Source: Flavobacterium sasangense DSM 21067 (GTDB taxonomy: Bacteria; Bacteroidota; Bacteroidia; Flavobacteriales; Flavobacteriaceae). Taken from it: DNA of 64,000 bases. The stretch covers positions 1-64,000 of the forward strand of contig NZ_JMLU01000021.1 of assembly GCF_000686885.1 (NCBI RefSeq), read 5' to 3'. The notes under the pieces were generated by a model, which saw only the letters and a program-made list of their open reading frames with translations, was not told the origin of the DNA and searched no databases. Made by a program: the position numbers and the translations under genes. Positions 279 through 52,601 of the stretch are shown here, piece by piece (position 1 is the first letter of the stretch; each line of letters opens with the position of its first letter).

Positions 279-310
279 AATAATTCATATTTTTAAATCT
301 TAACAAAGAT

Positions 311-432
311 ATGAGCCCCGATGGGAGTGAAAATCTTTTTTCTTTTTTGTTGCCTTCGAGTGCCTCAGGCAACAAAAAAGAAAACCTCGAGCAACAAAAA
401 AGAAAAAATTGTAGCGGACAGCGGGACTAAAA
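311..432. repeat. Intergenic repeat with long inverted and direct repeats
   Basis: The stretch begins AGCCCCGATGGGAGTG and ends near GTAGCGGACAGCGGGA, with a core in which TTTTCTTTTTTGTTGCC (338-354) faces GGCAACAAAAAAGAAAA (368-384). A second CGAGCAACAAAAAAGAAAA copy follows at 388-406. From memory, intergenic elements with such AGCCCCGAT and GCGGACAGCGGGA ends are common in Flavobacterium, but this was not checked. The core can form a strong hairpin. The element lies between the IS110 end and the permease gene. Confidence 0.55.
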
Positions 433-50860: not shown

Positions 50861-50890
50861 ATAAAAAAACCTCTGCTTTCGACAGAGGTT
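50861..50890 (-). terminator. Attenuator terminator before metY
   Basis: AACCTCTG and CAGAGGTT form an 8-bp stem around a 7-nt loop, followed on the minus strand by a run of T (from 50869 down). It stands 25 bp after the stop codon of the Met-rich leader and about 135 bp before metY, so it stops the metY transcript itself. Confidence 0.88.
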
Positions 50891-50915
50891 ATATTGAATT
50901 AATTTACTTTTAAAA

Positions 50916-50984
50916 TTATGCAATAGTCTTCCTCTGCGGATTGTTCCACATCATCATACACATATTGCACATTGTAAAGTTCAT
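50916..50984 (-). CDS. Met-rich leader peptide of the metY-metX-thrA operon
   Basis: The 22-codon frame from ATG 50982-50984 to TAA 50916-50918 reads MNFTMCNMCMMMWNNPQR and four more residues. It has six Met, three of them in a row at codons 10-12, and two Cys. It is followed by a terminator and the methionine genes. Codons CAG AGG (50931-50936) are complementary to the 5' arm of the terminator, giving an antiterminator. TGCAATA (50963-50969) can pair with TATTGCA (50919-50925), giving a protector stem. This is the layout of ribosome-mediated attenuation sensing Met. Confidence 0.85.
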   Translation of the reverse strand: MNFTMCNMCMMMWNNPQRKTIA

Positions 50985-51010
50985 CTTCTATTTCTTTTAG
51001 TTTGACAGGG

Positions 51011-51219: not shown

Positions 51220-51231
51220 CATCCGAAAACT

Positions 51232-51284
51232 AAGAGGAAAAATTTGAACTGATTGCAACCTCATTAAAAAATGCTAAAGCAGTA
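51232..51284 (+). promoter_or_regulatory. SAM-II riboswitch before metK
   Basis: The sequence has the SAM-II order. P1 is GAGG (51234-51237) with CCTC (51259-51262), the loop has ATTTGAACTGATTGCAA, the 3' part is AAAAATGCTAAAGCAGT, and P2 is ACTG (51248-51251) with CAGT (51280-51283). This follows the H-type pseudoknot of the class. An alternative 10-bp helix, GAGGAAAAAT (51234-51243) with ATTTTTCCTC (51316-51325), and a TGCTAAAG/CTTTAGGCA pair would break the aptamer. They are the likely off/on partners before the ATG at 51351. Confidence 0.85.
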
Positions 51285-51350
51285 ATTACTACTCCTTTAG
51301 GCACTACCTGCAATTATTTTTCCTCGCTTAAAATTTAAAAATAATTTATT

Positions 51351-52601
51351 ATGGCTTATTTATTTACGTCAGAATCAGTGAGTGAAGGACATCCTGACAA
51401 AGTTGCGGATCAAATTTCAGACGCATTAATTGATAACTTTTTAGCATTTGACCCTGAGTCAAAAGTAGCTTGTGAAACTTTAGTTACTACAGGTCAAGTA
51501 ATTTTAGCTGGAGAAGTAAAATCAAATACTTATTTAGATGTACAAACTATCGCAAGAGATGTAATCAAGAAAATTGGTTACACGAAAAGCGAATATATGT
51601 TCGAAGCAAATTCTTGTGGAGTTTTATCTGCTATTCACGAACAATCTGCCGATATTAATCAAGGAGTTGATAGAGCAAGCAAAGAAGAGCAAGGTGCAGG
51701 TGACCAAGGAATGATGTTTGGTTACGCTACAAATGAAACAGCTGAGTTCATGCCGTTAGCTTTGAAATTATCTCATCAAATTCTTCAAGAATTAGCGGAT
51801 TTAAGAAGAGAGAATAAAGAAATCTCTTACTTACGTCCAGATGCGAAATCTCAGGTTACTTTAGAATATTCTGATGATAACAAACCGGTTCGTATTGATG
51901 CTATTGTAGTTTCTACACAACACGATGATTTTGCTGATGAACCAACGATGTTAGCGAAAATCAAAAAAGATATTATTGAGATTTTGATTCCAAGAGTGAT
52001 TGCTAAAAATCCACAATATGCTCATTTATTTAATGATGCAATTAAATACCACATCAACCCAACAGGAAAATTCGTAATTGGAGGACCTCACGGAGATACT
52101 GGTTTAACTGGAAGAAAAATTATCGTAGATACTTACGGAGGAAAAGGAGCTCACGGTGGTGGAGCATTCTCTGGAAAAGACCCATCTAAAGTAGACCGTT
52201 CTGCTGCTTATGCAACACGTCACATCGCTAAAAACTTAGTTGCTGCTGGTGTTGCTGACGAAATTTTAGTACAAGTTTCTTATGCTATTGGAGTTGCCGA
52301 ACCAACATCAATCAACGTAAATACTTACGGAACAGCAAAAGTAAATTTAACTGATGGAGAAATCAGCAAAGTTGTTGAAAGCATTTTTGATATGCGTCCT
52401 TACTTTATTGAACAACGTTTAAAATTAAGAAATCCAATCTATAGCGAAACAGCAGCTTACGGTCACATGGGAAGAACTCCTGAAACCGTAACTAAAACGT
52501 TTACTGCTCCAGGTGGTTTAACAAAAACGGTTACAGTTGAGTTATTTACTTGGGAAAAATTAGATTTCGTAGATAAAGTAAAAGCAGCTTTTAACATCTA
52601 A
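51351..52601 (+). CDS. metK: S-adenosylmethionine synthetase
   Basis: MetK makes SAM from methionine and ATP. The 416-residue protein keeps [33 protein letters not shown], the P-loop-like [37 protein letters not shown] and the end GHMGR. It is full length and complete. It stands divergent from the metY operon, and both share a 620-bp region filled with regulatory RNA. Confidence 0.98.

Follow-up and report, generated by a model that had tools for sequence, protein, structure and literature searches.

A putative ribosome-mediated attenuator upstream of metY that would read methionine and, probably, cysteine codons in Flavobacterium sasangense and its relatives

Classical leader-peptide attenuators are those of the trpL, hisL, pheL, thrL and ilvL type, and methionine synthesis is usually described as being sensed through SAM riboswitches, T-boxes or MetJ. 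Cysteine leaders of mycobacterial cys operons have reportedly been described by Canestrari in 2020. Passages of two papers touch on the classical attenuators (PMC1262725, PMC2965389), the former also placing Cys leaders before mycobacterial cys operons, and a passage of a third describes uORFC-8-2, which lies with an intrinsic terminator before cysS in Rhodobacterales (PMC8632094). A methionine leader, metL, has been proposed before metNIQ of S. lividans in the portion of that report cited here (PMC8079986). For F. psychrophilum, the main text of one study presents strong clues that leader peptides act as attenuators ahead of operons for amino-acid biosynthesis, names conserved elements at pheA and hisG, and prints the promoter consensus TAnnTTTG (PMC9723704).

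The locus considered here lies on the minus strand upstream of metY in the window, by which we mean the whole 64,000-nucleotide stretch of F. sasangense DSM 21067 that was analysed (contig NZ_JMLU01000021.1, positions 1 to 64,000). Its leader ORF, MNFTMCNMCMMMWNNPQRKTIA, runs for 22 codons from ATG to TAA (50984-50916) and, as the preliminary description had stated, contains six Met including the start and three of them in a row; the internal Met are codons 5, 8, 10, 11 and 12, with MMM at codons 10-12, and Cys occupies codons 6 and 9. The stop is followed after 25 nt by an intrinsic terminator hairpin, AACCTCTGT-CGAAA-GCAGAGGTT (50890-50868), of 8 Watson-Crick pairs plus one G-U (9 bp) and then by a run of five U (50867-50863); the 8-bp terminator with U run described previously is correct if the G-U pair is left out of the count. 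Codons 17-18 (50936-50931) read CAGAGG, a copy of the terminator 3′ arm, and the complementarity of this strand to the terminator 5′ arm, on which the earlier proposal of pairing depended, is confirmed, the duplex having an energy of -11.6 kcal/mol, the same as that of the terminator hairpin by itself. Within the leader, TGCAATA (50969-50963) and TATTGCA (50925-50919) are complementary and form the 5′ and 3′ arms of a predicted protector helix, P1. A predicted promoter -7 box, TAATTTTG (51018-51011), fits the consensus printed for F. psychrophilum, and 139 nt separate the terminator from metY. The window contains 463 ORFs that start with ATG and are 12-50 aa long, and this leader is the only one with five internal Met; four of the 463 have a terminator within 60 nt, the other three with 0-1 internal Met. 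When the 420 nt upstream were shuffled 2000 times with dinucleotides preserved, five internal Met were reached once. A chance Met-rich ORF was rejected on the single such ORF among 463 and on the shuffles.

The leader precedes metY, encoding O-acetylhomoserine sulfhydrylase (50728-49436, minus; TIGR01326, 638.9 bits, cut-off 495.1), a metX-like homoserine O-acyltransferase gene (49371-48406, minus; best TIGR01392 at 175 bits, under the cut-off of 500), thrA for aspartate kinase/homoserine dehydrogenase (48404-45990, minus; NF006959, 765.8 bits, cut-off 726) and a metZ-like sulfhydrylase gene (45862-44690, minus; NF006003 at 512.1 bits, slightly under its cut-off of 522). By this typing, and at cysHDN and metX loci elsewhere, the genes 3′ of the leaders make the amino acid that would be sensed. 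A SAM-I riboswitch (44537-44430, minus; RF00162, 76.9 bits), the only RF00162 match of the genome at E<=0.001, lies before metH-metF and is a separate control of the methylation arm, and a SAM-II riboswitch (51228-51287, plus; RF01726, 66 bits) precedes the divergent metK (51351-52601, plus; TIGR01034). One 13-kb met region carries three sensors: the leader for metY-metX-thrA, SAM-I for metH-metF and SAM-II for metK. The metH of the window (44363-40513, minus) consists of two ORFs of 337 and 890 aa, the homocysteine-binding part being split from the rest. Elsewhere in the window, positions 310-432 (+) match Flavo-1 RNA (RF01705), a motif with function unknown.

The interpretation in which we place strong confidence is transcription attenuation mediated by a ribosome on a leader that would read Met-tRNA and, probably, Cys-tRNA as well. 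The leaders are marked by Cys codons almost as strongly as by Met, such that both charged tRNAs may be read. The locus combines features of a classical attenuator, namely a codon-enriched short ORF, an intrinsic terminator, an alternative helix of type A and pathway genes downstream. Transcription would begin near 51004, just past the -7 box, and a ribosome would then enter the leader. A shortage of charged Met-tRNA (or Cys-tRNA) would make this ribosome stall on codons 5-12 and cover TGCAATA, blocking the protector helix and leaving CAGAGG free to pair with the terminator 5′ arm at CCTCTG, and RNA polymerase would continue into metY-metX-thrA. Adequate charging would allow the ribosome to reach the stop and cover CAGAGG, at which point the terminator would form and transcription would end. 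With no ribosome on the transcript, the predicted protector helix of the window species would hold the region and again favour termination. In many relatives a second unit, B, would operate by the same logic before the gene, apparently sharing the promoter that precedes the first unit, A. Leader translation and stalling are inferred, as are the direction in which the system would respond, the part played by Cys and the serial action of two stages.

Folding with a modelled ribosome masking 30 nt gave the expected switch in the window when the leader was treated as an unfinished transcript lacking the terminator 3′ arm. The antiterminator had a probability of at least 0.99 while the A site was at any of codons 3-13 and of about 0 from codon 14 to the stop, every internal Met and Cys codon lying within codons 5-12; with no ribosome, P1 had a probability of 0.96 and the antiterminator 0.04. 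In this energy model of an incomplete transcript, the position of the ribosome thus selects between helices. Once the transcript was complete, the terminator had a probability of about 1 at every ribosome position, which means that antitermination must be kinetic.

Conservation was assessed in 150 genomes of the genus, from which 84 loci with a full-length metY match of about 700 bits or more were kept, two of them with two metY copies, so that 86 upstream regions were compared. In 71/86 of these there is a short ORF with four or more internal Met (median 5), compared with a mean best internal Met count of 0.97 in shuffled regions. Of the 15 regions without such an ORF, five have one with three internal Met; the leader of the window itself occurs in a 3-Met version at locus L006. 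Among named genomes, 64 of 80 loci (the best 80 of 564, overlapping with the genus set) carry at least four internal Met, so that the Met run, whose conservation the preliminary description had made the test of its proposal, is kept in both samples. These 64 include species of Flavobacterium, Lutibacter, Christiangramia and Gramella as well as of Salegentibacter, Gillisia, Salinimicrobium and Kordia. The closest named relatives among the best 80 of 564 are F. proteolyticum and strain BAL38 (98%), and the leader of F. psychrophilum DSM 3660 has three internal Met and four Cys. More distant members, with metY 74-77% identical, have leaders that are rich in Met and contain little Cys or none, as in MTLLTNTMMMVMMMSMMMLPPPRCQKSKS.

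The terminator finder located one or more Met/Cys ORFs with a terminator behind them in 78/86 genus regions, and the units fall into two types. Unit A has a leader like MNLTICNMCCMMWKFPQRTFIA and a terminator AAACCTCTGC...GCAGAGGTTT; unit B has a leader like MNVIAKNMMSCMMMHMMMCCIGICYYQKRKT and a terminator AAAAGTCCTTTTGG...CCAAAGGGACTTTT. Within 800 nt of the gene, 38 of the 86 regions have A and B in succession, 17 have A only, 23 have B only and eight have neither; the view that most regions are tandem was dropped after this recount. Sorting by terminator motif misfiled L012, L018, L019, L073, L083 and L102, and a wider motif was used later. Some B-only genomes have unit A approximately 3.5 kb upstream, behind a TonB receptor. 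Such a TonB-dependent receptor lies between unit A and unit B-metY at L149, L204 and L209 and is a candidate for sulfur-source uptake. The motif TTTG occurs at -40 to -16 of leader A in 54/58 units versus 182/779 control windows (L018 and L047 being left out of this count, and L115, a chance hairpin, out of the unit counts), and 16-40 nt before leader B in 8/62 units versus 283/1042; the strict TAnnTTTG lies within 75 nt before leader A in 22/60 units versus 36/584 control windows. The presence of TTTG before A and its rarity before B are consistent with a single transcript that crosses both terminators. The window is a one-terminator example of this Met/Cys attenuator family. Roughly where relatives have unit B, it has a second, Cys-rich uORF, MKIAIYNPRRCCRMCS (50839-50789, minus), with no terminator. 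The close relatives examined retain this uORF, and F. haoranii (L232, metY 84%) has a counterpart, MKMYLPRRCCRMCCLG, at a similar place; it could be what is left of unit B or could be functional in its own right.

Leader A ends in codons that include CCGCAGAG, a sequence shared for the most part with the 3′ arm of the terminator, and the tail can thus pair with the terminator 5′ arm and act as antiterminator. A one-base gap after the Met run changes the tail from Pro-Gln-Arg to Ser-Ala-Glu (PQR versus SAE) while the letters CCGCAGAG are retained, and where the terminator is GCCGCTGCC, at L090 and L094, the leader tail is GCAGCG. Pairing was counted in alignment A1, with 39 of 60 A units (near-duplicates, most GCCTCCC-type terminators and one misfiled unit excluded), and A2, with 35 of 61 B units, and recounted in wider sets of 59/60 A units (A4, without the misfiled L102) and 59/61 B units (A5, without L011 and L037, which have over-long ORFs); P1 of B was counted on A2 alone. 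Antiterminator pairing reaches 94.9% in the 39 chosen A units, in which 3/6 pairs are changed on both sides and the covariation score is equalled by 0/500 shuffles. In the 59 units, 89.3% of cells are paired, the covariation score is 0.265 versus 0.151 (0/500 shuffles) and both-side changes occur in 20 cells versus 5.7 in shuffles; the number of pairs changed on both sides, 4/6, is not above shuffles (121/500), whereas the cells and the score are. The terminator helix of A is 98.3% paired in 59 sequences, and P1 of type A has 72.0% of cells paired and both-side changes at 6/6 main-helix pairs in the same number. Taken together, P1 and terminator A are paired in 87.4% (39 units) and 87.1% (59 units), the latter with both-side changes at 12/15 pairs. 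For B, both-side changes occur at 16/20 pairs of P1 plus terminator in the 35 chosen units and at 8/11 pairs of the terminator by itself in 59; the antiterminator is paired at 90.2% and 93.7%, and its covariation is at or near that of shuffles (134/500 and 25/500). The leader-terminator pairs found in nature beat on average all 5000 re-pairings for both types, with relatedness uncontrolled, and for variant terminator arms the own pairing lies above both kinds of swap in 16/24 rows and not in 8/24, the 24 including two misfiled rows (L083, L102) and one chance row. Relatedness stays in all of these pairing and covariation controls, and identical units were entered once in the re-pairing, ribosome-stall and downstream-shuffle tests.

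For all units we used a looser folding measure, which counts any upstream partner with which the terminator 5′ arm pairs. Its mean was 0.97 with the ribosome stalled at Met, 0.36 at the stop and 0.70 with no ribosome in 60 A units, and 0.93, 0.46 and 0.89 in 62 B units; the unit of the window gave 0.97, 0.63 and 0.18. A Met stall exceeded the stop codon in 59/60 A and 52/62 B units, and in the remaining 10 of 62 B units it did not, two of these being reversed. A stall at the last Met gave 0.95 versus 0.44 with a shuffled downstream leader in 58 A units, and 0.89 versus 0.53 in 62 B units. The Met stall exceeded the no-ribosome state in just 36/60 A and 9/62 B units. Because many units pair the 5′ arm upstream with no ribosome present, shut-off in the absence of translation, as predicted for the window, does not hold generally, and the idea that the protector helix is important everywhere was dropped. 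Of the earlier proposal that TGCAATA/TATTGCA can protect the terminator, the complementarity stands and is predicted to be relevant in the clade of the window, but a general role does not emerge from folding. The preliminary description was right on its facts, and the covariation of the type-A antiterminator and the switch obtained with a modelled ribosome argue that it was very likely right in reading the locus as a leader-peptide attenuator; it omitted the Cys codons, the adjacent SAM-I and SAM-II riboswitches and the second unit of relatives.

At metY the leader alternates with SAM-I. We scanned with Rfam 60 family loci, one per genus, which are the best-scoring of 172 matching genera (237 searched). 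Upstream of metY in these best-scoring 60, SAM-I is present in 48, a leader with at least four internal Met in nine (L086, L087, L090, L094, L098, L102, L108, L125 and L142), neither in three (L099, L115 and L119) and both in none; a terminator was found in seven of the nine leader genera, not in L098 and L125. SAM-I was absent upstream of metY from all 20 scanned genus loci (of the 84), three of which carry one downstream of metY. The leaders of other genera resemble A or B by eye, suggesting one patchily distributed family. Sequence comparison supports the leader, the terminator, the conserved pairing, the association with genes and this alternation. The same gene is controlled in related genera by a SAM riboswitch or, very likely, by a peptide that reads charged tRNAs, and the exchange of signals (SAM versus Met/Cys-tRNA) at metY is consequently open to direct study.

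Further candidate targets came from models R1 and R2, built from A1 (unit A) and A2 (unit B), which match 59/100 and 52/100 relatives at E<=0.01, the weak matches being partly chance; 20 opened regions plus further individual loci were inspected. Leaders lie before metX-thrA in genomes G291, G009 and G011, in which metY was not found (the metX of G291 is 57% identical to the metX-like gene of the window), and before a metZ-like gene and metX-thrA in G038. They also lie before an OsmC-like gene in G009 and G011, before an OsmC-like gene, a thrA-like fragment and metH in G033 and G055, and before a TonB receptor in G063 and G008, with G004 having just the model match before its receptor (Pfam-typed in G004, the other receptors being 86-88% identical to it). 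Proteins of the OsmC-like kind, approximately 148 aa long, are encoded beside attenuators or near metH at L191, L192, L194-L196 and L201-L203, as identified by Pfam in L192 and by 34-70% identity to the L192 protein in the others. Leaders precede cysHDN and further Cys genes in G038 (typed by Pfam), G032 (typed by similarity) and G566, the last of another family and with two Met/Cys leaders. The leader filter was negative at L193, L194, L197, L202, L203, L207, L208 and L210, R1 being strong in some of these (G003, G024), and L201 and L198 are unusual among the opened regions. Among cysH-like loci, taken as the best 30 of 79 matching genomes, Met/Cys leaders are present in 8/9 with at least 61% identity, and the other 21 have one distant leader candidate; the leaderless cysH genes among those 21 may lie inside operons. 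The median C/(C+M) is 0.57 in 15 cys-operon peptides versus 0.45 in 115 others (rank test p 0.0004, on related sequences).

In the genome of the window (G000), the A pattern occurs once, R1 matches at metY only (E<=0.01), R2 has one weak match (E 0.008) and a cysH-like gene was not found at E<=1e-60 with the query used, suggesting that the organism may not assimilate sulfate. A strict A pattern gave four matches in 397 family genomes and 0 in the backward control among the matches listed. At E<=1e-4, R1 matched 16/196 genomes sampled from the order, and each of the 16 belongs to the genus of the window; R1 was trained mostly on that genus and the filters were strict, so that this count is no proof of absence elsewhere. 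On balance we lean toward a Flavobacteriaceae sulfur amino-acid regulon controlled by leader-peptide attenuators that would read Met-tRNA and Cys-tRNA, often in series, with a Met/Cys ratio tuned to the operon and with the leader standing in for SAM-I at the entry to homocysteine. Its members would be metY, metX-thrA, the metZ-like gene, the metH cluster, cysHDN with cysE/K/J/I, the OsmC-like gene and the TonB receptor. Were this true, two serial stages would make expression dependent on a steep or combined shortage. The result is a readable candidate target-gene set in Bacteroidota, a phylum with few attenuation reports found. A separate leader in the window, the Phe-rich MLTNSTFFYNNSFYFFWRQMRDCCAII (37626-37543, minus), lies with a terminator (37515-37494) before pheA (ATG 37475), and its tail GGGATTG can pair with CAATCCC, repeating the design of the Met leader.

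The diversity of these peptides bears on whether the leader could instead be an arrest peptide whose signal, like Trp for TnaC, is a free metabolite (Met, SAM or Cys) detected inside the ribosome tunnel. Leader A does have a fairly conserved core, CNMCCMMW, as such a peptide would have it, but the Met and Cys residues of B differ in order and in number, one clade has nearly Met alone (MMMVMMMSMMM, L078), one cys-operon leader is mostly Cys (CCCAKCC, L199), and the C-terminal region, the expected site of an arrest motif, shifts reading frame among relatives, leaving us to regard arrest as very improbable.

Another explanation would have a folded RNA, such as an unrecognised riboswitch or protein site, control the terminator, with the Met and Cys codons a by-product of a UG-rich motif. 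It would account for the conserved pairing in tail and spacer and for the prediction that most B units pair the terminator 5′ arm with no ribosome present. However, gaps within the ORF preserve the frame: counted per sequence, they come in multiples of 3 in 77/77 cases in the 35 aligned B units and in 108/126 in the 39 A units, the remaining 18 being the one-base gap after the Met run, compared with 22/84 (B) and 30/78 (A) in the spacer. The Met/Cys part of the leader thus behaves, by its pattern of gaps, as coding sequence. Amino acid use also shifts with the operon, and together these observations led us to judge a non-coding UG-rich RNA motif unlikely. A known RNA element was rejected as well, since the Rfam scan of the leader found no family near its gathering score; the nearest match on the leader strand at a permissive threshold was Phe_leader (RF01859, 21.3 bits versus 55), a T-box was not among the ten Rfam matches up to E 5, and the SAM-I and SAM-II covariance models matched only at the two riboswitches beside metH and metK. 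Control by a folded RNA accordingly has, in our estimation, only a slim chance of being correct. Control at the level of translation or by a small RNA, in which the terminated leader would act in trans or a uORF would control metY translation, might draw on the second, terminator-less uORF near metY in the window but is extremely unlikely given a conserved design that is centred on terminator and antiterminator and a distance from the last terminator to the gene that varies from about 30 to 330 nt.

Relative to described systems, a ribosome-mediated attenuator at metY would be of a known kind, leader-peptide attenuation, and its Met/Cys specificity, serial build, targets and alternation with SAM-I appear to be undescribed in the literature searched, where no Met leader before metY in Bacteroidota was found among the papers listed (supplements and most subscription papers lay outside the search). 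SAM-I (RF00162) occupies the same place before metY in 48 of the best-scoring 60 of 172 genera but senses SAM. The clues from F. psychrophilum concern the same genus; the word "Methionine" is absent from the main text of that report, and its Table S7 could list the metY leader (PMC9723704). Small ORFs in long 5′-UTRs of Bacteroides thetaiotaomicron, also of the Bacteroidota, have been called reminiscent of leader peptides, and, unlike the metY leader, come with no mention of amino-acid specificity or Met genes in the passages cited (PMC7366714). The Cys leaders of mycobacteria and Rhodobacterales resemble the present leaders in being Cys-codon uORFs before Cys genes and, so far as those passages go, are confined to Cys, to other phyla, to a single stage and to other genes (PMC1262725, PMC8632094). 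The metL of S. lividans is likewise a proposed Met leader, and its sequence also holds CMCRRMC; it differs, in the text cited, in having a transporter downstream, in being reported from one genome and with no typical intrinsic terminator, and the likeness drawn here implies no relation by sequence (PMC8079986). With the classical attenuators, the metY leader shares a short ORF rich in codons for the end product, a competing antiterminator and intrinsic terminator, and a biosynthetic operon 3′ of these elements. Unlike them, it combines Met with Cys, carries its antiterminator strand at or near the last codons of the ORF, is often built of two units in series and is found in Bacteroidota.
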